Assembly: GCA_016778985.1 (NCBI GenBank)
Contig: JADHOM010000013.1
Coordinates: forward strand, 1-57,586
Direction of reading: 5' to 3'
From: Alphaproteobacteria bacterium
Lineage (GTDB): Bacteria; Pseudomonadota; Alphaproteobacteria; Puniceispirillales; UBA1172
DNA length: 57,586 bases
In this document: positions 23,972 through 53,687 of the stretch, one piece after another
Layout of the letters: each line of letters begins with the position of its first letter
How positions within the stretch are numbered: position 1 is the first letter of the stretch
Made by a program: the position numbers and the translations under genes
The notes under the pieces: generated by a model
The model's database searches: none
What the model saw: only the letters and a program-made list of their open reading frames with translations
What the model was told of the DNA's origin: nothing

Positions 23972-25321
23972 ATGAGCAATATGGGCGACATGAGCGACAT
24001 GACCAAGGTAAACAAGGTAATCGACTATATTCGCAACAGCCAATGGCAGGACTTTCCGACAAGCGTCAAGCATAACGCTTTTCGGTCGATGTTTGACACT
24101 ATAGGCGTATCCGCCGCCGCCACAAAAACCGAATTATCATCAATAATCCGCAACCATGCCGCCAGAATGTTTGGTGGCGCAGGTGCCAGCCTTTGGTGGG
24201 ATGGACGAAAAGTCAGCCCGGTTGGGGCAGCGCTTGCCAATGCCATGAGCATAGATGCGCTTGATGCCCATGATGGGCAGAAATTGACTAAGGGCCATAT
24301 TGGCTGCGGGCTTATCCCTGGCATCATGGCGATTGCTGAGGCGGAAGGTATTGATGATAACCTAGAAATAATGACAGCTATGGCGCTAGGCTATGAGTTT
24401 GGCACAAGGGCGGGCATTAGTCTGCATGCCAGCACATCAGATTATCATACATCAGGCGCTTGGATTGCGGTTACGGTAGCGGCGATAGGCGCTCGTCTAA
24501 TGAGGCTTAATGAGAGCCAAATGCGCCATGCTATGGGCATTGCCGAATATCATGGGCCACGAAGCCAGATGATGCGCTGTATTGACACCCCTACTATGGT
24601 TAAGGATGGGTCAGGATGGGGCGCAATGGCAGGGGTGAGCGCTGTATATCTGGCGGCAGATGGCTTCACTGGCGCCCCTGCTATCAGTATTGAGGGCAAG
24701 GATGTGGCTGATCATTGGGCTGATCTGGGAAGTCATTATTATATGGATGAGCAATATATAAAACTCTACCCTGTTTGTCGGTGGGCACAGCCAGCGGTTG
24801 AAGCAGTGCTTGATCTGATGAAACGTCATGACATCACCGCTGATCAGATTGCCAATATTGAGATTAGCAGCTTTGATGAGGCGGTACGCTTATGTTCGAT
24901 GGCTGAAAACACCGAAGAAGCGCAATATTCTTTGCCGTTTTCGGTGGCGGTAGCGGCTTATCATGGGACGATTGGCGTTGATGAGATTTCCAAGGCTGGC
25001 TTAACCAATCCCGATATTCAAGCCATAGCAAGAAAAGTAAGTGTCATCAGCAATGACGATTTCAACGCGGAGTTTCCTAAACGTCGGCTTGCCATAGCCA
25101 GCATTGAGACAACAGATGGTTGGCGATTCTCATCTGACCCGACGGAGGCTATTGGTGACCCAGAAGCGCCTGTGAGTGACGATGTTCTGCGTCAGAAATT
25201 TAATACATTAGCCAGCGCAACTTGTAATCCTGAAACGCTAAAAAATCTTGTCCATGCGCTAGGCGACTTGCGGCAGATGCCTGATATGAATAAGGTTATT
25301 GCTATCTTGCGAAAGCATTAA
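23972..25321 (+). CDS. MmgE/PrpD family protein
   Basis: A 449-residue member of the MmgE/PrpD fold, which includes 2-methylcitrate dehydratase and cis-aconitate decarboxylase. Recognisable segments are FDTIGVSAAA, DALDAHDGQKLTKGHIGCGLIPG and YIKLYPVCRWAQPAVEA. The N-terminus has several possible starts because of a short Met-Asp repeat (MSNMGDMSDM). No other methylcitrate-cycle gene is adjacent; it lies in a cluster with a threonine aldolase and a Rieske oxygenase. The reaction is unknown and may be a dehydration or decarboxylation. Confidence 0.85.
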   Translation: MSNMGDMSDMTKVNKVIDYIRNSQWQDFPTSVKHNAFRSMFDTIGVSAAATKTELSSIIRNHAARMFGGAGASLWWDGRKVSPVGAALANAMSIDALDAHDGQKLTKGHIGCGLIPGIMAIAEAEGIDDNLEIMTAMALGYEFGTRAGISLHASTSDYHTSGAWIAVTVAAIGARLMRLNESQMRHAMGIAEYHGPRSQMMRCIDTPTMVKDGSGWGAMAGVSAVYLAADGFTGAPAISIEGKDVADHWADLGSHYYMDEQYIKLYPVCRWAQPAVEAVLDLMKRHDITADQIANIEISSFDEAVRLCSMAENTEEAQYSLPFSVAVAAYHGTIGVDEISKAGLTNPDIQAIARKVSVISNDDFNAEFPKRRLAIASIETTDGWRFSSDPTEAIGDPEAPVSDDVLRQKFNTLASATCNPETLKNLVHALGDLRQMPDMNKVIAILRKH

Positions 25322-25391
25322 TTACCCCTCATACTTCTTTTTTCTAAAAAGTTCATGTAAGATAGGATACAGGTAATGTTAGGATAGTGTT

Positions 25392-26573
25392 ATGGCAGAT
25401 GATGTGTTTCAAAATCCTGAGGATCGGTTAGGGCTACCCGGCTGGACATATTTTAATGATGAGCTGTTTGAGCTAGAGGCAGAACAGTTATTTCGGCGCC
25501 ACTGGCAACTGGTTTGTCATCAAAATGATATTCCAGAAAAAGGTCAGTTCACGACATTTGATCTGGTTGGTGAACGGGCATTGATTATCCGTGGTGAAGA
25601 TGATGTTATCCGAGCTTTCCATAACCTTTGTCGACATCGTGGCTCTCGTGTTGTGACTGAAGAAAGCGGGCTTTGCAAAAAGGCCATTGTCTGTCCTTTT
25701 CATGGCTGGAGCTTTAATCTTGATGGCAGTTTGCGGTCACCTGCAAGGCCACGCAGTTTGCCTGATCTTGATCCGGTCGAATGGGGGTTAAAGCCGATTG
25801 AATGTGAAATATGGCAGGGCTTTATCTTTATTCGCTTTAAGCCGGGCCCACAGCCAAGTGTCAAAGACATTATGGCACCGCATGATGATCTGATTAAGCC
25901 GCATCATTTACCTGATCTTATGCCTGCTTCGTCGCCTCATCTATCTGAAACATGGGATGTTAACTGGAAAGCTATTCGTGATGTAGATAATGAGGGCTAC
26001 CATGTGCCGATCGCGCATCCGGGCCTGCAAGACTTATATGGCAAAGATTATTATGATTTTGATCTGACCGGCGATACATCGGTTTCCGTTGGCAATTTCA
26101 ATAAGACACCGTCACATTTATGGTCGGTTCGGAATTATCGCAATCTGATTAACAATCTGCCAGAACCTTGGGCATCTTTGCCAAAAGCGTGGCATTATGT
26201 TTTGCTTTTCCCCAATCAGGTCATAGGATTTTATCCCGATAGTATCATTTTCTATCAGGACATTCCGGTGACAACGGGAACAAGCCAGCAGCGTTCTGCA
26301 TCTTATGCGCGGCCAGATGAAGATAGAGTCACCCGCGCCGCCAGACACCTAGCCGCCCGTATTGATGAGATTACTGGCATAGAAGATATGCATTTGATTG
26401 AATGGTCATATGAAGCCATGAAATCCAGTGCATTTGACGGCATTATGCTCTCTGATCTGGAAAGTGGGGTCGGCCAGTATCACAACAGGTTGCGCCAAAT
26501 GTTTCCTGTCATGACCTGCAAGGATGAGCCAGCAGAACGGACAGTAAAACAGATCAATTATGATATGAGCTAA
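25392..26573 (+). CDS. Rieske non-heme iron oxygenase, alpha subunit
   Basis: A 393-residue aromatic-ring-hydroxylating-type oxygenase. The Rieske centre is Cys80-x-His82 (CRHRG) and Cys101-x2-His104 (CPFHGW). The mononuclear iron site has DNEGYHVPIAH with His204 and His209. The iron Asp probably lies in IEDMHLIEWS near residue 335. Family members hydroxylate aromatics or N-demethylate quaternary amines such as carnitine, glycine betaine or stachydrine. No reductase, ferredoxin or beta subunit is next to it, so electrons must come from elsewhere. It is the last gene of the 21652-26573 cluster, convergent with nrsF. Confidence 0.88.
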   Translation: MADDVFQNPEDRLGLPGWTYFNDELFELEAEQLFRRHWQLVCHQNDIPEKGQFTTFDLVGERALIIRGEDDVIRAFHNLCRHRGSRVVTEESGLCKKAIVCPFHGWSFNLDGSLRSPARPRSLPDLDPVEWGLKPIECEIWQGFIFIRFKPGPQPSVKDIMAPHDDLIKPHHLPDLMPASSPHLSETWDVNWKAIRDVDNEGYHVPIAHPGLQDLYGKDYYDFDLTGDTSVSVGNFNKTPSHLWSVRNYRNLINNLPEPWASLPKAWHYVLLFPNQVIGFYPDSIIFYQDIPVTTGTSQQRSASYARPDEDRVTRAARHLAARIDEITGIEDMHLIEWSYEAMKSSAFDGIMLSDLESGVGQYHNRLRQMFPVMTCKDEPAERTVKQINYDMS

Positions 26574-26605: not shown

Positions 26606-27283
26606 TTACCAGCGCAGGAATATGCGGCCAGCCAGCGCACCAATGCCGCCAGTTATCATAATACCTACACTATACCAAAGCCCATAAAAGGCAGGCGAGT
26701 CCTCAGTACAGAAAAATGCATAAATCATGGTTGCCCATGCGCCTGCGATAATGCCGGCACGAATGCCTAGCCATATCGGATGTTGTGGGGCGGAATGGAT
26801 TAGCGCGATTATTTGCGCGGCCAGTATTACTAAGGCTAAGGATGGGATGAGAACGACGCAGCGAGCTAAACTGCCGCCTATGATAACATCGCGCCATTGG
26901 CTTAACTCCATATTATATAATGCCAATACAAATAACATCGGAAAGATGAAAATCGGCGCCAAGCTTAGGATATGATGCCAGCGTCCGCGGTCAGTTTCGG
27001 GATAGGCTAATGCCCTTATATTAAACAAAATAATGATCCCGATAAAGGCAGGGATCAGCTGTTTCAGGCTGACATGAGGGGTCGTGCTGATCTGAATCAG
27101 ATTATTCCAGTAATCAGGACGGAAAGACAGCCACTGATAAAGACTAGCCATAAAGGTTAAGCCCGCTACAACCATAATACTGAATAGCGTTAGGCTAATA
27201 TAAACCCTGCTAAAATAGCGTGCTGATCGGGGCATATGGATATCTTTACTTAATAAAGCAATGGTATCATTCAGTTGTGTCAT
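26606..27283 (-). CDS. nrsF: NrsF-like anti-sigma factor (DUF1109), six-helix membrane protein
   Basis: A 225-residue integral membrane protein of the DUF1109/NrsF family, which holds a cognate ECF sigma factor inactive until metal stress. After a short cytoplasmic N-terminus come about six helices. The family hallmark is FFCTEDSPAFYGLWYSVGI followed by the terminal GRIFLRW. Two cysteines, Cys142 and Cys192, match the two that are required in Caulobacter NrsF, where they sense heavy metals. The gene overlaps the sigma factor by 17 bases and is last in the bufferin operon. Confidence 0.85.
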   Translation of the reverse strand: MTQLNDTIALLSKDIHMPRSARYFSRVYISLTLFSIMVVAGLTFMASLYQWLSFRPDYWNNLIQISTTPHVSLKQLIPAFIGIIILFNIRALAYPETDRGRWHHILSLAPIFIFPMLFVLALYNMELSQWRDVIIGGSLARCVVLIPSLALVILAAQIIALIHSAPQHPIWLGIRAGIIAGAWATMIYAFFCTEDSPAFYGLWYSVGIMITGGIGALAGRIFLRW

Positions 27284-27881
27284 GACCGTTTCCTTTATAC
27301 CTGTTTTGGGTATGGCCGTTGTGGTTTTGTTTGCTCTGGTTCTGTCTGGTCTGGTGAAGAGAGGTTAATTTTTTTAGCCCGCGATGAAAGGCAATACGGA
27401 CGGCGTTTTCAGACATGTTTAATGCCCTTGCAGTGCCTGTGATATCTTTGCCTTCCAGGCCAATGGCTTGCAGAACCCATCGGGTTTTACCGTTTAAGCG
27501 ATGCACCATTTTGACCAGATCAAGACGGTGTATTGGATCAGGGTTATCGGCGATGAGCTGATCAGCATGATGATCAAGTGACGTTGTCTTGTGGCGGTTA
27601 AGTCGCCGCAAATGGTCAATAGTACGATACTTGGTGATCGCATTTATCCATGGCAAAATAGGCTGGTTACGGCGCCAAGTCTGGCGTTTCTGATGGATAG
27701 CAAATAGCACATCTTGAACAAGATCATCTTTATCAGCGGCAATCCCAAACGGCAAGATACGCGTAATTTGATTTTCAATTGGGCGTACGGCTTTCTTGAG
27801 AAAATCTTCATATTTTCCCATATCGCCTTGGATGGCGGCTTGCATTAATGACGATAATTCGGTTTCAGTAAAGTTCTTCAT
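27267..27881 (-). CDS. sigF: ECF RNA polymerase sigma factor, SigF-like
   Basis: A 204-residue group IV sigma factor. Region 2 includes DKDDLVQDVLFAIHQKR and WINAITKYRTIDHLRR. Region 4 has LEGKDITGTARALNMSENAVRIAFHRGLKKL, the helix-turn-helix for the -35 element. The longest frame reaches 28070, overlapping the DoxX gene as ATGA, but its extra 63 residues lack family features and cover a perfect TATAAT at 27948-27953. I therefore start at the ATG at 27881. It overlaps nrsF by 17 bases. In Caulobacter the equivalent SigF drives the operon that contains it, giving autoregulation. Confidence 0.88.
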   Translation of the reverse strand: MKNFTETELSSLMQAAIQGDMGKYEDFLKKAVRPIENQITRILPFGIAADKDDLVQDVLFAIHQKRQTWRRNQPILPWINAITKYRTIDHLRRLNRHKTTSLDHHADQLIADNPDPIHRLDLVKMVHRLNGKTRWVLQAIGLEGKDITGTARALNMSENAVRIAFHRGLKKLTSLHQTRQNQSKQNHNGHTQNRYKGNGHDTTE

Positions 27882-27947
27882 CCCGTACCAATCAAACCAA
27901 TGGCTAAGGGTTGCAAGGCACCTAAAAAAGAAACATCTACTGCCCCC

Positions 27948-27953
27948 ATTATA
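27948..27953 (-). promoter_or_regulatory. Possible internal sigma-70 promoter for sigF-nrsF (-10 TATAAT)
   Basis: On the minus strand a perfect TATAAT lies about 67 bases upstream of the sigF ATG at 27881. No good -35 hexamer is visible at 16-18 bases. If real, it would give a basal supply of sigma/anti-sigma pair independent of the bufferin promoter. Confidence 0.4.
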
Positions 27954-28066
27954 CCTGAAGTCTAGAAAATGGCTAATCACAGTTTGATGATTTGAGGTAT
28001 CATGATGATGATCCTCAATCTGCTCCTCAAAATACCGATAGCTGTGATTTGGAACAGAGGCTAATA

Positions 28067-28606
28067 TCATGACCGACGAGCCGATATTTTTCGGGATAAG
28101 ATATGATCGAGAGAAAATCGACCAGCGCCACAGCCGGGGATTATCAGCAGCATCAATATCCAGAATAGCCGCTGATCAATAATGCCATTGCTATGCCGAT
28201 CAAACAGCGCGCCAATCATCACCCCATGACCTGTTACATCAACAAATGTCATGACAATAATAAACCCGATCATGCCAAGCGCCGCTAATCGGGTCATTAA
28301 CCCTATCACAATCAGTATTGGCAAAATAATCTCACCATAGGTGCCAGCCATAACGATGAGCCAGTCTAACCAGTTAAAGCCAGCAGTATTGTAATTAACC
28401 AAAGCGGCTTTATTTGGCAGGATTTGTCCATAGCCACCGATAGATGGTGAAAATGGTGAGGTGCCAAACTTGGTCTTGGCGGAGTTCAGAAAAAAAAGTA
28501 ATAATGTTGCCGCAAATCCTAACCGCGCCACGAGAGGTAGCACGGGTGTTAGCAGGCGTTGAGCAGTCGTATCAATAAAACAATAGAGAGAAATAACGGG
28601 CTTCAT
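28067..28606 (-). CDS. DoxX-family membrane protein (BufD-type)
   Basis: A 179-residue four-helix membrane protein of the DoxX family. Segments FAATLLLFFLNSAKTKFG, WLDWLIVMAGTYGEIILPILIVIG and LFWILMLLIIPGCGAGRFSLDHIL fit the family. In bufferin operons a DoxX protein follows the DUF2063 gene; its role there is unclear, and electron transfer has been suggested. It ends 185 bases before the preferred sigF start. Confidence 0.82.
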   Translation of the reverse strand: MKPVISLYCFIDTTAQRLLTPVLPLVARLGFAATLLLFFLNSAKTKFGTSPFSPSIGGYGQILPNKAALVNYNTAGFNWLDWLIVMAGTYGEIILPILIVIGLMTRLAALGMIGFIIVMTFVDVTGHGVMIGALFDRHSNGIIDQRLFWILMLLIIPGCGAGRFSLDHILSRKISARRS

Positions 28607-28655
28607 CTTAGCTCCTTTTTTCGGGAAGTTGGATTGAGGTGACCATAGTTAATGT

Positions 28656-29366
28656 TCACTTGACCCATTCCATCAAGGTATTTGCAGAGATTGCGCTTTG
28701 CCTGTTGATGGCTGATTGCAAACTCAAACCCTGATCTAGCATTTTAAGAAAGCGCATGCAGTGTTCACTCACCAGTATCAGAGTGACCTGTGCATCATGC
28801 CTGACCAAAACGATATGCTGAGCCTGATCACGGATCTCATGATCAAGATGACCCTGATTGGCATACCAAATATCAAATATAGGATATTCCGAGTCTAAAA
28901 ATTGGACGGAAGGATGAAAGTCCAATTTAGCCGCCAATAATTCCTGCGCCTCATATGGTAGATTATCGGGATCAAGAAATGGGATATCTGCCGCGTGAAG
29001 TGACAGTCGTTGCAAATATTCCAGCTCAGCAACATCGCCAAGATAGGGCAATTCTTCAACCGCCTCAAAGGTACGAATAAAGGCGGCAAATGGCTCTCCA
29101 TAAAATATCATGACAGGTGATTTTGGCGGAAACTTTTCAACAAATAGCTATGCCATATAACTAAAAAAATCATCACTGACAATCGCCAAGACAAGCGGGA
29201 AGCCATCTTTCAAATTAGATATCAAGCTCATCACATGGTTATTGCGGTAAACATTAAACCGCTTAAGGTCAGGGCAGCCATCATGCCGGATAATGCCATC
29301 AGGCAGCGGTAGATCAGGCGCAGTCAAAGCTCTTGCAAAATGCTTATGCCAATGCATGCTGTTCAT
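28656..29366 (-). pseudogene. bufC: DUF2063 protein (BufC-type) interrupted by one in-frame TAG
   Basis: The 237-codon frame encodes a DUF2063 protein, the partner that helps a DUF692 enzyme bind and modify its precursor peptide. Codons 1-72 give the DNA-binding-like domain (FARALTAPDLPLPDG, RFNVYRNNHVMSLI, FPLVLAIVSDDFF). Codon 73 is TAG at 29148-29150. The same frame continues with LFVEKFPPKSPVM, PYLGDVAELEYLQRLSLHAAD and WYANQG, all family-typical. No frameshift is needed, so a single change (for example CAG to TAG) explains the break. It may be a recent nonsense mutation, a sequence error or a site of readthrough. Restart at the ATG at 29111 would give the C-terminal half. The start overlaps bufB by 23 bases. 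Confidence 0.8.
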
Positions 29367-30297
29367 AATTCAAAGTCCTGTCCTGAATATGGGTGATCAT
29401 GACGTTAGCTTTAATCGCATCACGTTGAAGGATATGCCATTCCGGGACATCATTATCCCACTCAATCAGGGTAGGTTTAATGCCATGAGTGCTGATAACG
29501 TCTTTATAGAGTTGCCAGACAGGGTCTGCGACCGCGTCATTATGGCTATCGATGAGCAGGAGGCTGCCAGCCGCATCCTTATCGACAGAATGCCCGCCGA
29601 GATGAATCTCAAATACGCTTTTCATCGGCAGTTGCGCCAGATATTCACGCGCAGATTGATAATGATTATGGGGATTATGATTACAGGTGCTGACAAAGAC
29701 ATTATTGATATCAAGCAATAGCCCACATCCGGTGCGGCGAATAATGGCATTAATGAAATCAGTTTCGGTCATGTCATGTTCAGCAAACAGGATATATGTC
29801 GATGGATTCTCAATCAGGATTTGACGTTTAAGGGTATCCTGAACCTGATCAATATGGGCAATAACCTGTTCTAGCACGGGTTTTGTATAGGGCATTGGCA
29901 ACAGGTCATTATAGAACGTGTCGCCATGCGTGCTCCATGCCAGATGTTCAGAAAACATGGCAGGTTGTAGCCAGTTAAGCAAGCTAACAAGCCGTTTTAA
30001 GTGATTGCGATCAAGCGCTTGTGGCGCCCCAATTGAAAGCCCAACACCATGACAGGATATAGGGAAATCCATTGCTAATTGTTCAAGCATAGCCTTTCTG
30101 GGGCCGCCATCTACCATGTAATTTTCAGCATGAATTTCGAACCAGTTCACGCCATTTGAATCTTTTGCAATTGCAGGTAAATGTTGCGGCTTAAAGCCAA
30201 CACCAACCGCCTTGGGTAGATCAGGCTTAGTCTGTTTATCATTATTATTAATGATGGTATTAATGGCGTTATTTATATTTGTTCTTAATCGGCTCAA
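29344..30297 (-). CDS. bufB: DUF692 multinuclear iron enzyme (BufB-type, MbnB/TglH relative)
   Basis: A 317-residue TIM-barrel enzyme of DUF692, a family of di/tri-iron oxidases that modify cysteines in ribosomal peptides (MbnB for methanobactin, TglH, and BufB for bufferins). Family motifs appear in order: GVGFKPQH, WFEIHAENYM, SCHGVGLSIG, FSEHLAWS, LIENPSTYI, LLLDINNVFVS, IHLGGHS, LIDSHND and IEWDNDVPEW; the His, Asp and Glu residues form the iron site. The first 26 residues are Asn/Lys-rich and poorly conserved, so a later start is possible. bufA is 103 bases upstream; bufC overlaps its 3' end. Confidence 0.92.
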   Translation of the reverse strand: MSRLRTNINNAINTIINNNDKQTKPDLPKAVGVGFKPQHLPAIAKDSNGVNWFEIHAENYMVDGGPRKAMLEQLAMDFPISCHGVGLSIGAPQALDRNHLKRLVSLLNWLQPAMFSEHLAWSTHGDTFYNDLLPMPYTKPVLEQVIAHIDQVQDTLKRQILIENPSTYILFAEHDMTETDFINAIIRRTGCGLLLDINNVFVSTCNHNPHNHYQSAREYLAQLPMKSVFEIHLGGHSVDKDAAGSLLLIDSHNDAVADPVWQLYKDVISTHGIKPTLIEWDNDVPEWHILQRDAIKANVMITHIQDRTLNYEQHALA

Positions 30298-30400
30298 TGT
30301 ATGTCTCCATCCTGAAGTCAGAATTAAGCCTGACGTTGCTATTAAAAGAGGGCATCAGGGTAACGACCGGCATCACATATGCAATGCCGGCCAATTATGA

Positions 30401-30712
30401 TCAGCTAGAGGGGAGATCACGATCAAGGGCACTAAGTGACCCGTTGCGTTTTTCACCATTAGCCATTGCCGGCAGTTTCATTTTCGTGCAGGTGCCAGCT
30501 GGAACATGCTTCCAGGCATTGCCCTGATAATCCACTGAAGATGTGCCAGCACAGGTTGTTCCGGGGCCAGCCGCACAATCATTGGCACCAGCCATAGAAA
30601 CGCCGTAACATTTCTCATTATCACCGGTTTGGGCGAGGGCTGGGGCAACGCCGCCTGCGAGTGTTGCAGTAGCAGCGGTTGCAATAAGGATTTCTTTAAG
30701 GTGGAGATTCAT
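30401..30712 (-). CDS. bufA: Bufferin precursor peptide (DUF2282)
   Basis: A 103-residue exported DUF2282 protein, the substrate of the DUF692/DUF2063 pair. An N-terminal signal peptide ends near PALAQ (about residue 28). The mature part contains four conserved Cys at 35, 46, 54 and 75 in [18 protein letters not shown] and PAGTCT, the bufferin pattern; enzyme-made thiooxazole groups on the central cysteines bind copper in described bufferins. AAGGGA precedes the ATG. It is the first gene of the operon; its promoter must lie in 30713-30970, where I could not find a convincing ECF -35/-10 pair. Confidence 0.9.
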
Positions 30713-30992
30713 TTCATTCCCTTTCTTGATCTGTTTTTATCAATCAGATCATTGTGTTGCGTTAATCAATATGACTGGCAAAACTGTTGATGATAGTGAC
30801 GAGATATTGCCGTCAATCATGGATATGGCTTGCCTTGTCTTATTGTTATTCGTTCGCAAGAGATGATTTATTTCAAAAAAACAGTTTTATATTTTGAACT
30901 GTCTTATATATTCAGGGAATAAATGATTTATACTTTGCCTTTTTTGTCAGTGTGCTAAAGTTATTTCTTTGAATAATAATATTACGGTGTTT

Positions 30993-43094: not shown

Positions 43095-44654
43095 TTAACT
43101 GACAGGCGGTGCACCGCCCTCACGTATTCGTGTTGTGATGAACTGGCGTAATTTTGCGGTCAGTGCGGCGTTATCCTTGAGAGTGTTAGGCTGTTGCAGA
43201 ATATCTTTCCATATTTTGGTGGCGCGATGATTGGTATCTATACTGCCATTGTCTTTCCATGTGCCGTAATTTGACAGATCAGCAACAAGATGCTGATAAA
43301 ACTCAGTCTGATATCTTGCCATCGTGTGATCACATCCGAAAAAATGCCCACCGGGCGGCATTGTGGCAATAGCATCATATCCGATATCATCGGTGCTAAT
43401 CGATAAAGGTTTGCACATATGTTCTACCATTTTCAAAACTTCGCTATCGGTGATCAGTTTTTCATAGGATAACGCCAAGCCGCCCTCAAGCCAACCCGCT
43501 GAATGGATAACAATAGTCGCCCCAGCCATCAAGCATCCCCATAAGCCAAACTGGGTTTCATTAGCGGCTTGGATATCATTGATATTAGCGGCGCTTCCTG
43601 ATGCACAGCGCCAAGGCAGGCCAGTTTTCCGGGCTAATTGTCCAGCAACTAATGAGGCCCGAAAATGTTCAGGAGTACCAAAGGCAGGCGCCCCAGATTT
43701 CATATCAACATTGCTGGTGAAAGTGCCGTAACAGACAGGCGCCCCGGCCTGCGTGATCTGAACCAGCGCAATAGCTGCCAACGCTTCTGCGTGGGAAAGC
43801 ATCATTGCCCCAGCGACGGTAATCGGTGCCATCGCCCCCATCAGAGTGAATGGCGTGACGATGCTCATCTGCCTGGCACGGGCGAAATCAATCAATCCCT
43901 GTGCCATAGGCAGATCAAGGATGCGCGGCGAATTGGTATTGATAATGGTATAACACCAAGGGTTGGTATGAAACTCCTCCATGCTGATATCACGAAACAG
44001 TCGAATCATCTCAAACCCGTCTTCGATTTGTTGTGAGCCGCGCGAATAAATGAATGGCACTTTATCGGTTTCGGTCAGCATCGCATCCATAATGGCATAA
44101 TGCCGATGCTCTGGGGCGACATCTTGCGGTTCAACCAAGGGCGGCATCATATGAAAGCATGAAAAATGCTGGGTTAGTTTTACCAGCTCACGAAAATCTT
44201 GCTCAGACCCGATGCGGCGGCCGCGTTCCAGATCAGTCGCATAGGGTGCCGCCGCACCTGGCTGAAAGACCAACTTGCCCAATGCAAGCGTAATATCACG
44301 CGCGCGATTGCCGCCTCTTAGGGTGAAGCTCTTGGGGGCGGTTTTAAGGGCAGAAAGAATAATATCCCTGCCGATCCAGACCATTTCGCTACTCTCATCA
44401 ACCCTCGCACCAGCAGATTGATAAAGCCGCCTTGCTTCTGGATGCAGAATTTTAATGCCTTCATGCTCAAGAAGTTTTAGCGCCGACTGATGCATTTCCT
44501 CAATGATAGTGTCATCAAACCCATTTAATGGCGGGAAAGGATTATCAAGTGCGCCGAAGGCTTGGGGTGGGGCAGGTTGTGCGGTACGCTCCTTATTCCG
44601 CTTGCTTCTGCCCAAGCGTTTGGGTTTGTCGAGAGGCGCGACATCCTTATTCAT
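43095..44654 (-). CDS. MttB-family (trimethylamine methyltransferase superfamily) protein, non-pyrrolysine
   Basis: A 519-residue protein of the MttB superfamily, whose members move a methyl group from a quaternary or tertiary amine to a corrinoid protein. LNGFDDTIIEEMHQSALKLLEHEGI opens the family core; IYSRGSQQIEDGFEMI, FGTPEHF and WRCASGSAANINDIQAANETQFGLWGCLMAGATIVIHSAGWLEGGL follow. There is no internal TAG, so it is the non-pyrrolysine form, several of which act on glycine betaine or proline betaine. It overlaps the upstream DMGDH-like gene by four bases. No corrinoid protein or MtbA homologue is adjacent, so its methyl acceptor is unclear. Confidence 0.85.
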   Translation of the reverse strand: MNKDVAPLDKPKRLGRSKRNKERTAQPAPPQAFGALDNPFPPLNGFDDTIIEEMHQSALKLLEHEGIKILHPEARRLYQSAGARVDESSEMVWIGRDIILSALKTAPKSFTLRGGNRARDITLALGKLVFQPGAAAPYATDLERGRRIGSEQDFRELVKLTQHFSCFHMMPPLVEPQDVAPEHRHYAIMDAMLTETDKVPFIYSRGSQQIEDGFEMIRLFRDISMEEFHTNPWCYTIINTNSPRILDLPMAQGLIDFARARQMSIVTPFTLMGAMAPITVAGAMMLSHAEALAAIALVQITQAGAPVCYGTFTSNVDMKSGAPAFGTPEHFRASLVAGQLARKTGLPWRCASGSAANINDIQAANETQFGLWGCLMAGATIVIHSAGWLEGGLALSYEKLITDSEVLKMVEHMCKPLSISTDDIGYDAIATMPPGGHFFGCDHTMARYQTEFYQHLVADLSNYGTWKDNGSIDTNHRATKIWKDILQQPNTLKDNAALTAKLRQFITTRIREGGAPPVS

Positions 44655-47053
44655 CGCATGGCCTTTCCTTGCGGGTCATAAGGTGATGGCGCAATGACTC
44701 TGGCGGCTTTTTCGACACTAACGATATGCGTCGTCAATTCAACTCCCTCAATCGCCAGATCAGCATTGACCAAGCCCATAGCCAGTGATTTTTGGATAGT
44801 ATGGCCATATCCGCCTGATGTGATAAAGCCCACTAATTCACCGTTCGACCATATCGGCTCATAGCCGCTGGCATCGGCATCATCAGCATCAATTTCTAAT
44901 GTCACCAATTTTTGCTGGGGCGGTGTTTGATCACGTTCTGCCAGCGCTGCCGCACGTCCAACAAAATCACCTTTATCCCAGTCAATCCAGCGATCCATGC
45001 CCGTCATGCCCGGGGTATAACCTTGCGTGAACTCAGCTGACCAGATACCAAAACTTTTTTCAAGGCGCAGGGAAAGCATGGCATTAAATCCATATTCACG
45101 AATATCAGATTTTGCCCCAGCCTCTAATAACATGCGGCGCAGGGCAATATGATCACCCATCCGGCAATTAATCTCATAGCCTAGCTCCCCTGCAACCGAT
45201 AAGCGGCCAACTTTGGCACGGATCAGCCCAATGTCAAACTCGCCACATCCCAGAAACGGCAGGTTTTCAATATCACCATCGGTAAGCCTAGCTAAAACCT
45301 GGGTAGATTTTGGCCCAGCAAGGGAGAAGCCCACCATTTCCTCACCTAGATCACGGATACTGACCCCGTCATCAATATGGTCATTGAACCAGCGCATATG
45401 CCATGCCCGCAAATAATATGAGCCCATTATCCAAAACACATCATTGCCCCAGTTAAAGATCGTCAAGTCGCCTTTTAACTTGCCGGCTTCGCTTAGCATT
45501 GGTGATAGCCGAACACGTCCAGGTTTTGGCAGACGGCCAGCCATGATGCGGTTAAGCCATGCCTCGGCATTTTTGCCTGTTACCTCAAAACGGGAGAAGC
45601 CAGAAATATCTAGTAATCCAACGTCAGAGCGTACTGCTCGACATTCATCACCAACAATATCAAAAGCATTTGATCGTTTCAGTGATGGCGTCTCACAAAA
45701 TCCGTCGGGAGCAAAGTATAATGGCACTTCCATATCCCAGCTAACCCCCCAATGACATCCTGCGGCGGTCATTTCACTAGAGGCTGGTGTCATTTTAAGC
45801 GGCCGGCCAGCTGGCAGCTGTTCATTCGGATAGGTCATAACAAATCGCCGCGAATAGAACTGGCCTGTGGTTTCCTTGATATATTGCTTATTTTCCGCGA
45901 ACTCACCATAGCGGGCAACATCCATCCCATAAACATCGGCCTCTGGCTCACCATGGATGATCCATTCGGCTAAGGATTTGCCAACTCCGCCGCCCTGAAG
46001 GAAGCCAGCCATCACCGCACAAGCGCACCAATATCCGGGCTTGCCAGGAACAGGGCCAACCAACGGGTTGCCATCTGGTGAGAATGTGAAGGCACCATTA
46101 ACCCATGTTTTAACGCCAACCTCCTGCAAGACAGGATAGCGCTCAAACCCCATTATCAATTCGTTTTCAATGCGATCAGTCTGTTCTTGAAATAGCTCCA
46201 TGCCATAATCCCATGGCGCCCCATCCATCGCCCAATGCTCATGGTCAATTTCATAAATCCCTAATAAGACACCGTTCTGATCTTGGCGCAGATAAGTAAA
46301 GCCTTCTAGGTCGACGGTCATCGGAACTTCAAAATCAATTTCCTCAAGTTTAGGGATGGAATCCGACACAAGATAATGGTGCTTCAAGGGTGAGACAGGC
46401 AATTCAATACCCGCCATCCGCCCAAGTTGCTTTGCCCACAGGCCTCCAGCATTAACAATATGCTCACAAGTGATCGTGCCTTTATCAGTGTTGACGCGCC
46501 AGCCGTCTTTCGTCTGTTCAAGACTATCAACCTTCGTATGTTCGAAATATTCAGCGCCACGTTTACGCGCCGCGATTGCATAGGCATGAACCGTTCCGGT
46601 CGTATCAATATAGCCTTCGCGATCGGCCCACATTCCGCCGAGCAAACCATCAGTTGACATAATCGGATTAAGCTCGCCAGCTTCTTCGGGGGTGACAAGA
46701 CGGCAATCACTAATACCAATAGATTGGAATACCCGATAAGCAGACTGCAGCCATTCCCAGCGATCAGGGGTTCCGGCCATGGTTAGGCCGCCCGTCATAT
46801 GAAGGCCAATATTATGGCCGCTTTCTTGTTCAATTTCGGAAAGTAAATCAATCGTGTAGGCTTGAAGCGCGGCAATATTAGGGTCAGCATTAAGAGCATG
46901 AATACCGCCTGCGGCATGCCAAGATGAACCCGCGGTTAACACTGATCTTTCCAGCATACAGACATCTGTCCAACCAAACTTAGCTAAGTGATAAAGCACA
47001 GATGAGCCAACAACACCGCCACCAATCACGACCACTCTATAATGTGATTTCAT
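44651..47053 (-). CDS. FAD oxidoreductase-GcvT fusion, dimethylglycine/sarcosine dehydrogenase-like
   Basis: An 800-residue protein of the dimethylglycine dehydrogenase family. The N-terminal DAO domain (about 1-390) has GGGVVG at 11-16 and AGSSWHAAGG with His46, the residue that carries covalent FAD in DMGDH. A linker domain and GcvT folate-binding domain (about 430-700) and GcvT-C domain complete it. Such enzymes remove an N-methyl group and transfer it to tetrahydrofolate. ATGA overlap with mttB shows translational coupling. Its substrate is probably the demethylated product of an upstream quaternary amine, by inference. Confidence 0.88.
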   Translation of the reverse strand: MKSHYRVVVIGGGVVGSSVLYHLAKFGWTDVCMLERSVLTAGSSWHAAGGIHALNADPNIAALQAYTIDLLSEIEQESGHNIGLHMTGGLTMAGTPDRWEWLQSAYRVFQSIGISDCRLVTPEEAGELNPIMSTDGLLGGMWADREGYIDTTGTVHAYAIAARKRGAEYFEHTKVDSLEQTKDGWRVNTDKGTITCEHIVNAGGLWAKQLGRMAGIELPVSPLKHHYLVSDSIPKLEEIDFEVPMTVDLEGFTYLRQDQNGVLLGIYEIDHEHWAMDGAPWDYGMELFQEQTDRIENELIMGFERYPVLQEVGVKTWVNGAFTFSPDGNPLVGPVPGKPGYWCACAVMAGFLQGGGVGKSLAEWIIHGEPEADVYGMDVARYGEFAENKQYIKETTGQFYSRRFVMTYPNEQLPAGRPLKMTPASSEMTAAGCHWGVSWDMEVPLYFAPDGFCETPSLKRSNAFDIVGDECRAVRSDVGLLDISGFSRFEVTGKNAEAWLNRIMAGRLPKPGRVRLSPMLSEAGKLKGDLTIFNWGNDVFWIMGSYYLRAWHMRWFNDHIDDGVSIRDLGEEMVGFSLAGPKSTQVLARLTDGDIENLPFLGCGEFDIGLIRAKVGRLSVAGELGYEINCRMGDHIALRRMLLEAGAKSDIREYGFNAMLSLRLEKSFGIWSAEFTQGYTPGMTGMDRWIDWDKGDFVGRAAALAERDQTPPQQKLVTLEIDADDADASGYEPIWSNGELVGFITSGGYGHTIQKSLAMGLVNADLAIEGVELTTHIVSVEKAARVIAPSPYDPQGKAMR

Positions 47054-52937: not shown

Positions 52938-53687
52938 TTATCCATCCCCAGACAGGGCGATAATTTCATCTCGTAAAGGCTCTTTATGCACCACTTTCCA
53001 TGTGCCGCTCGCCTCTCTTTGCCAGCATTTTCTTATCCAGACATCATCTTCTTTTACCCACCACCAATTCTCATTCGCCAGATCGCCAGTCCATGTATAA
53101 ATAATCAGACAAGGGCTGTCGCCAGTGGTCAGGCTATGCACCTGATCAGGTGGCGTTAAGGAAAAATCGCCAGCCCTGATGTGCATGGGGGATTTGTCTC
53201 TACCATGACAAATATTCACCTCACCAGATAGGACGTAATAGATTTCGAGGGCTGGGTGTTGATGAAGCGGATAATGAATATGTGGGGCCAGCAAGAAAAT
53301 GCCAGAGAGGATTTTCTCACTGACCAACTGGCCACGGCTACCAGCGATTGGGGCAGTGATTAGGCCTTTACTTAATGTCTCACTTATAGAAGCATCGGAA
53401 AAAATCTCATACCAATGAAGTTCAGGCCATAGGTCTTTAATGAGTCCCGCTAATGGGGTTTTAATTATTTGCGCAAGTAAATCCGCTCCATAGCGAGTTA
53501 ACGCATCTGGATAAGGGCCTATATCGACATGACGGCGTGCGCTATCGGATAATTGTGCTAACCTATCAACAGATTGCTTAACCATCGCATCATGATCGGC
53601 ACCTGATGGATAAGTGGCGGGGGTTTGAAGCGCCTCAGCAAAGGCAGTATGAAGATTTGTAGCTAGATCACGCATAAGATATCTCAC
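52938..53687 (-). CDS. DMSP lyase-family cupin (DddQ/DddL-like)
   Basis: A 249-residue protein with a C-terminal cupin similar to dimethylsulfoniopropionate lyases, which split DMSP to dimethyl sulfide and acrylate. LLAPHIHYPLHQHPALEIYYVLSGEVNI carries the metal-binding His, Glu and Tyr pattern of DddQ/DddL, and PPDQVHSL supplies the later His. The N-terminal helical part also fits this group. The terminal part (WTGDLANENWWWVKED) is compatible. It is flanked by an amine/betaine importer operon and an EamA exporter. Another metal-dependent cupin function is possible. Confidence 0.68.
   Translation of the reverse strand: MRYLMRDLATNLHTAFAEALQTPATYPSGADHDAMVKQSVDRLAQLSDSARRHVDIGPYPDALTRYGADLLAQIIKTPLAGLIKDLWPELHWYEIFSDASISETLSKGLITAPIAGSRGQLVSEKILSGIFLLAPHIHYPLHQHPALEIYYVLSGEVNICHGRDKSPMHIRAGDFSLTPPDQVHSLTTGDSPCLIIYTWTGDLANENWWWVKEDDVWIRKCWQREASGTWKVVHKEPLRDEIIALSGDG

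Follow-up and report, generated by a model that had tools for sequence, protein, structure and literature searches.

The analyzed window, a stretch of 57,586 nucleotides from the genome of a bacterium belonging to a marine SAR116 genus, harbors a locus at 26606-30712 on the minus strand with the gene order bufA-bufB-bufC-doxX-sigF-nrsF. Judged by its gene families, this locus is a Buf1-type bufferin operon with a SigF/NrsF switch. It is probably a formerly functional operon that is in the early phase of being lost and can no longer mature bufferin: the partner gene bufC is split by an in-frame TAG. The operon and its features are located as follows.

30849 to 30875, minus strand: candidate sigma-F-type promoter upstream of bufA, TGAAATA-N16-CGAA (motif and conservation)
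30401 to 30712, minus strand: bufA, DUF2282 (Buf1) precursor of 103 aa (Pfam DUF2282, 2.6e-24)
29344 to 30297, minus strand: bufB, MNIO (DUF692) of 317 aa with a TTG start (Pfam MbnB_TglH_ChrH, 6.5e-99)
28608 to 29366, minus strand: bufC, gene of the DUF2063-RRE partner, disrupted (Pfam and HvfC-family matches to its pieces)
29148 to 29150, minus strand: in-frame TAG at bufC codon 73 (reading frame and whole-genome HMM search)
28656 to 28658, minus strand: TGA at bufC codon 237, probable second premature stop (frame open onward to the TAA beside doxX)
28067 to 28606, minus strand: doxX, DoxX family membrane protein (HvfX-like) of 179 aa (Pfam DoxX, 6.2e-6)
27267 to 27881, minus strand: sigF-type ECF sigma factor of 204 aa (Pfam sigma-70 region 2, 4e-7; region 4, 2.2e-7)
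26606 to 27283, minus strand: nrsF, membrane anti-sigma factor of 225 aa (Pfam NrsF, 3.2e-38)

An earlier note, made from the letters of the window, had described a complete bufferin operon with a SigF/NrsF switch and had proposed HMM searches as a check. These were run, and Pfam matches to DUF2282, DUF692/MNIO, DUF2063, DoxX, ECF sigma and NrsF were obtained at these coordinates in the minus-strand order that the note had given; its identification of the family was right. The four cysteines it had seen in the precursor could be aligned with those of three relatives (G002, G004 and G007), and the N-terminus of BufA was judged by eye to be a signal-peptide-like segment. BufB exceeded the cut-off of the NCBIfam equivalog NF050167 MNIO_BufB (357.7 vs 310 bits), and the DUF692 motifs named in the note were invariant in a four-way alignment. 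DoxX, a component of the Buf1 core cluster, scored above the Pfam cut-off for DoxX and below that of NCBIfam HvfX (5.4e-6); it is 57% identical to the G004 copy. The genes sigF and nrsF come after doxX in the same orientation. The sigF reading frame reaches 28070, with the start better placed at 27881, and its 3' end overlaps the start of nrsF at 27267-27283. SigF matched the sigma families PRK12512/12536/12539 with 1e-44 to 8e-35, below their cut-offs, and NrsF scored 70.7 against the NCBIfam NrsF equivalog, short of the cut-off of 300. The two NrsF cysteines noted before, Cys142 (26858-26860) and Cys192 (26708-26710), lie 50 residues apart and were invariant in all nine NrsF proteins compared.

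The candidate promoter TGAAATA-N16-CGAA was found once in the window (0.27 matches expected). The same motif with equal spacing is located 5' of bufA, or of the bufA remnant, in G001, G002, G004, G005 and G007 and is thus kept in six genomes including the window genome; its -35 element is TGAAATA, not the GTAACC of Caulobacter. A wider sigma-F regulon was considered and rejected: elsewhere in the genome the pattern matched just once, and in the relatives controls with the pattern reversed gave similar numbers. Searching the window for the Caulobacter motif GTAACC-N16-CGAA with two mismatches allowed was uninformative (30 matches vs 29.75 expected). Rfam detected no RNA elements in the window.

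The claim of a complete operon did not hold for bufC. Its N-terminal piece matched Pfam DUF2063 (5e-10) and its C-terminal piece gave a weak match to the HvfC family of NCBIfam. The TAG was found in two ways, by the reading frame and by an independent whole-genome HMM search that reported '1 TAG' inside the gene; it truncates BufC at residue 72 of about 252. The frame then ends about 15 codons early at the TGA, which is probably a second premature stop situated in a poorly conserved tail; the original frame probably extended as far as the TAA at 28608-28610. Reading both stops yields a protein of 252 aa that ends just before doxX, and the median length of 74 intact homologues is 257 aa. Homologues most often have Arg (32/76) or Gly (26/76) in the column of codon 73 and Leu (39/76) in that of codon 237. 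Elsewhere, bufC was full length in 74 of 75 assessable loci, the sole exception being the congener G002; the window genome lacks the full-length DUF2063-RRE partner (PME type 1) that is part of a Buf1 cluster. The reading as a complete working operon was rejected on account of the TAG together with the probable second stop.

The structural context of the TAG was examined using a model of the G004 BufC (mean pLDDT 92), the fold of which matched the partner proteins TglI and NGO1945 in a fold search; a sequence search with BufC against the PDB gave nothing credible. The TAG corresponds to residue 79 of this model, midway through a helix (71-84) of the DUF2063 domain; hence, both fragments fall short of a whole protein, and the first does not make up a whole domain. 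A genome-wide profile search revealed one gene each for DUF2063, DUF2282 and MNIO, and no second DUF2063 gene was found in the window genome, which is 98.6% complete; a paralogue therefore cannot stand in. The 5' part of bufC was under strong purifying selection (dN/dS 0.058), and profile scores did not detect excess decay after the stop as compared to other homologues. The lesion is thus either recent or tolerated, or else a sequence error. The genes bufA, bufB and nrsF retain open frames under constraint, with dN/dS values between the window genome and G002 of 0.22, 0.17 and 0.32, respectively.

Comparison with relatives revealed that the operon is disrupted repeatedly. In the congener G004 (OY288107.1, locus L006) the six-gene operon is intact beside the same ABC-permease gene as in the window, and the locus is therefore ancestral in the genus. 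The operon is also intact in G007, which belongs to another genus, at a different location. The three closest relatives of the window genome carry independent lesions, the operon being broken by a different deletion in each. G002 lacks some 1.57 kb, reaching from bufC to sigF; in G001 the core of bufA is deleted with a frame shift and bufB to nrsF are lost; in G005 the loss extends from promoter-proximal DNA (bufA) to the 3' end of nrsF. A mere 133-bp gap occupies the site in G006. Taken as a whole, the explanation we favor, an operon inherited from the common ancestor of the SAR116 genus and now being lost, is quite probable.

Judging from homologous systems, the intact form, as in G004, would sense stress via the two cysteines of NrsF and release the sigma factor, which would then switch on the operon at its TGAAATA-N16-CGAA promoter. 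BufB, the iron enzyme, and its RRE partner BufC would oxidize the central cysteines of BufA; after export through Sec, the product would bind periplasmic copper. The window genome has intact genes for sensing, precursor, enzyme and DoxX but a truncated bufC, so that mature bufferin would no longer be made and a Cu-binding product with Cys-derived thiooxazoles is not to be expected. Maturation is probably lost because BufC is a required partner: in HvfBC, the best-studied homologous system, no product is formed without HvfC, on which the active iron state depends (PMC13419390). This contradicts the earlier proposal that the organism makes a metal-buffering peptide; most likely, it no longer produces mature bufferin.

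It is unlikely that the operon works in complete form, the TAG being either a minority allele or an error made in sequencing or assembly. The remaining operon genes are open, the bufC frame is intact after the stop, and the TAG differs by one base from the Lys codon AAG, Lys being the aligned residue in G004; furthermore, a single wrong base would be compatible with the otherwise unbroken genes of the window. The same gene, however, bears the second probable stop, and the aligned codon of G002, CGG, is two bases away from TAG. A break here is also unsurprising, since the three closest relatives broke the same operon in other ways, and the absence of obviously broken genes elsewhere in the window argues against a poor assembly.

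Much less probable still is a bufC that works despite its stop, by readthrough of the TAG or by halves that are made separately, with a restart at ATG 29111, and associate. Its constrained 5' part and the lack of excess decay behind the stop would fit, but the stop lies inside a helix and not between domains, no clear Shine-Dalgarno sequence precedes ATG 29111, and the second stop would need to be tolerated as well. Reassignment or suppression of TAG was rejected: TAG terminates 4 of the 52 listed window genes, and no tRNA with the anticodon CTA (amber suppressor) was present among 32 classified tRNA hits in the genome, one further hit being unclassified. A split bufC as normal architecture was likewise dismissed, with none split in the 74 full-length homologous loci. 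If BufC did function despite the interruption within its DUF2063 domain, by readthrough or as a pair of polypeptides that complement each other, MNIO partner proteins would gain a new architecture; we give this reading the least credence of all. Only slightly more plausible than a working bufC is a function independent of BufC, e.g. BufA serving in unmodified form as a Cys-rich thiol peptide, or DoxX or SigF alone. All five other genes are open and bufA and bufB are still constrained, but this constraint may simply predate the lesion, and G001 and G005 have lost bufA and the regulators as well.

The locus thus appears to represent a known system on its way out, not one that is complete and at work. 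The earlier note had expected such a system to be notable; its kind is not unusual, as the catalogued Buf1 precursors number in the thousands and the presence of sigma factor/NrsF genes in Buf1 clusters has been described (PMC12452194). The parts of the operon are ordinary, and the interest lies in how it has been lost repeatedly in a single marine genus. One copy is intact, one has a point lesion, three carry different deletions and one site is empty, together forming a natural loss series for an operon that encodes a copper-buffering RiPP. Cu-ATPase hits (TIGR01511) came from G004 and G002 only, and not from the window genome, G001, G003, G005 or G006. Because such hits are lacking in most loss-bearing genomes, a link between relaxed oceanic copper stress and the loss of copper defenses is suggested. 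An annotation counting the window genome as a bufferin producer is corrected, and genome-mining counts from MNIO or DUF2282 matches alone overestimate working clusters.

The gene families of the locus are those of the sigma-F/NrsF and bufferin genes of Caulobacter vibrioides, where CC3254-CC3257 correspond to bufA-bufB-bufC-doxX (PMC3511200; PMC12452194). C131 and C181 of the Caulobacter NrsF are 50 residues apart like Cys142 and Cys192, and the candidate promoter here matches that of Caulobacter in the -10 element CGAA and the 16-nt spacer but differs in the -35 element (PMC3511200). Contrary to the note, the gene order is not the same: Caulobacter sigF-nrsF (CC3253-CC3252) are transcribed separately from a promoter of their own and carry the numbers adjacent to bufA (PMC3511200), whereas here they follow doxX. 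Furthermore, Caulobacter has two paralogous buf operons and the window genome a single one with a broken bufC. The G004 operon agrees with the window in its six genes, their order, the ABC-permease neighbor and the promoter; it differs in that bufC is one frame of 257-266 aa, depending on the start codon, and in the presence of the Cu-ATPase. Co-linear bufABC-doxX-sigF-nrsF operons, with bufC intact, occur in two gammaproteobacterial MAGs (L025, Acidiferrobacteraceae, and L037); no TGAAATA- or GTAAC-type promoter was detected within 400 bp of bufA in either, L037 having been searched over shorter upstream DNA. Finally, the Haemophilus hvf operon (oxazolin; HvfA-B-C-X) likewise combines an MNIO, a DUF2063-RRE partner and DoxX with a Sec-signal precursor, which is of the EGKCG type and not DUF2282, and its HvfC is intact and required for activity (PMC13419390).

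The earlier note had claimed a complete bufferin operon with an ECF sigma/NrsF switch and had proposed HMM searches, which came out positive: Pfam supported all six family identifications.

30712 to 26606, minus strand: genes for a DUF2282 precursor (bufA), a DUF692/MNIO protein (bufB), a DUF2063 protein (bufC), doxX, an ECF sigma factor (sigF) and nrsF, in this order
30849-30875, upstream of bufA: candidate sigma-F-type promoter TGAAATA-N16-CGAA

The window MNIO scored above NCBI's curated BufB cut-off. Alignments bore out the residues read in the note: the MNIO motifs did not vary in a four-way alignment, the four Cys of the precursor coincide with those of relatives, and Cys142 and Cys192 were invariant in nine NrsF proteins. 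The N-terminus of the precursor resembles a signal peptide. The window genome harbors one DUF2063, one DUF2282 and one MNIO gene. The C-terminal tail of the sigma factor is Gln/Asn-rich with short repeats (window 27267-27360; L008:4560-4660 in the relative G002), and the G002 tail is 60 nt longer and overlaps the DNA leading up to the nrsF start.

The operon is, however, not complete. Codon 73 of bufC is an in-frame TAG (SYMA*LFVEKFPPKSPVM), and a whole-genome HMM search independently gave one TAG within the DUF2063 match. Past the TAG, the frame is open as far as a TGA at codon 237; read past the TGA as well, it ends at a TAA one base short of the doxX start, giving 252 aa as compared to 226-333 aa (median 257) for intact homologues at 74 other loci. 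Leu is the commonest residue in the TGA column, which makes a second premature stop probable here, though the tail is too poorly conserved for proof.

An AlphaFold2 model of the intact BufC from the complete chromosome OY288107.1 (G004; mean pLDDT 92) matched in fold both TglI, an MNIO partner, and NGO1945, a DUF2063-RRE protein. By alignment, the TAG falls at residue 79 of this model, midway along helix 71-84 in the N-terminal DUF2063 domain, so that the 72-aa fragment is missing part of this domain and the entire RRE. In the homologous HvfBC system, no product was formed once the partner was omitted, and the partner was required for the active iron state (PMC13419390). From the truncated bufC and this requirement we infer that the window genome would make no mature bufferin via the known route, contrary to the metal-buffering peptide expected earlier.

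TAG terminates 4 of the 52 listed window genes and is thus a normal stop here; no CTA anticodon was found among 32 classified tRNAs (33 genome hits, one of them partial and unclassified), and a split bufC was seen at none of the 74 homologous loci. The TAG may be a sequencing error at a single base, but the corresponding G002 codon, CGG, is two bases away from TAG, bufC carries the probable second stop, and the operon is broken in relatives, too.

The window genome comprises 2.1 Mb on 43 contigs and is 98.6% complete; it is inferred to belong to SAR116 from its nearest named relative. Among its close relatives are MED595 (G002), which carries the SAR116 name, and OY288107.1. G004 has the intact six-gene operon adjoining the same ABC permease, and G007, from another genus, has an intact operon at another location, which makes the locus ancestral in the genus. 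In G004 the aldolase directly adjoins nrsF; in the window, MmgE/PrpD and Rieske oxygenase genes (23972-26573) lie between a threonine aldolase-like gene and nrsF.

A permease tree placed the window genome (G000) as ((G000,G002),(G001,G005)), with G004 and G006 outside. All four members of this clade are broken, each by a different lesion. The window carries the TAG. G002, the sole other assessable locus with a broken bufC, carries a deletion of ~1.57 kb that starts inside bufC, reaches into sigF and spares sigma region 4 alone. In G001, a deletion of most of the Cys core plus a frame shift leaves a 27-aa bufA product without Cys, and bufB is cut short and fused to the nrsF end. In G005, everything is gone between a point just past the promoter and the final 61 positions of the NrsF profile. 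The flanking genes are separated by just 133 bp in G006, and neither was found in G003. As these genomes are mostly drafts, faulty assembly could account for any one deletion, but less easily for four different lesions at the same locus. MNIO was present in 6 of 136 genomes of the order, one copy being partial and divergent (G108, a different SAR116 family; L111, G108:C6:61671-61955).

Between G000 and G002, dN/dS was 0.058 for bufC before the deletion point, 0.22 for bufA, 0.17 for bufB and 0.32 for nrsF, and 0.05-0.09 for two neighbouring genes; nrsF was also fast between intact copies (about 0.33). Furthermore, bufC after the stop reached a family-profile score equal to that of intact homologues. 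It follows that the lesion either arose recently or, with lower probability, is tolerated.

The Cu-ATPase TIGR01511 matched in G004 and G002 at E 1e-30; no match at this threshold was obtained in G000, G001, G003, G005 and G006 (controls positive, 14/14). This pattern, a correlation over seven genomes, is consistent with a lineage that meets little copper stress.

Elsewhere in the window, at the contig end, a serine recombinase (Resolvase and Recombinase domains), an apparent second recombinase fragment recognized by eye and a peroxiredoxin-like gene (121-2220) may be what is left of an integrated element. An MttB-family methyltransferase adjoining a DAO/GCV_T (dimethylglycine-dehydrogenase-like) gene (43095-47053) and a DMSP-lyase-family cupin (52938-53687) suggest methylamine/DMSP metabolism.

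The operon is of a known kind and ancestral in the genus, and the window most likely shows it early in the course of being lost; its main value lies in the loss series and in a caution for genome mining. The motif TGAAAT-N17-CGAA has a single match in the window (0.27 expected), and it is kept upstream of bufA or its remnant in G002, G004, G007, G001 and G005. TGTAACA-N16-CGAA occurs at two other loci examined; the candidate -35 apparently shifted from TGTAAC in other groups to TGAAAT in SAR116. The Caulobacter sigma-F promoter is GTAACC-N16-CGAA (PMC3511200). Because spacing and -10 agree but the -35 differs, sigma-F control of the operon is likely, as judged from the promoter motif. The spacing of 50 residues between Cys142 and Cys192 equals that of C131/C181 in Caulobacter NrsF. 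The gene families of the Caulobacter locus, to which the gene order had been likened, are all present, whereas the layout differs: in Caulobacter, sigF-nrsF forms a separate unit.
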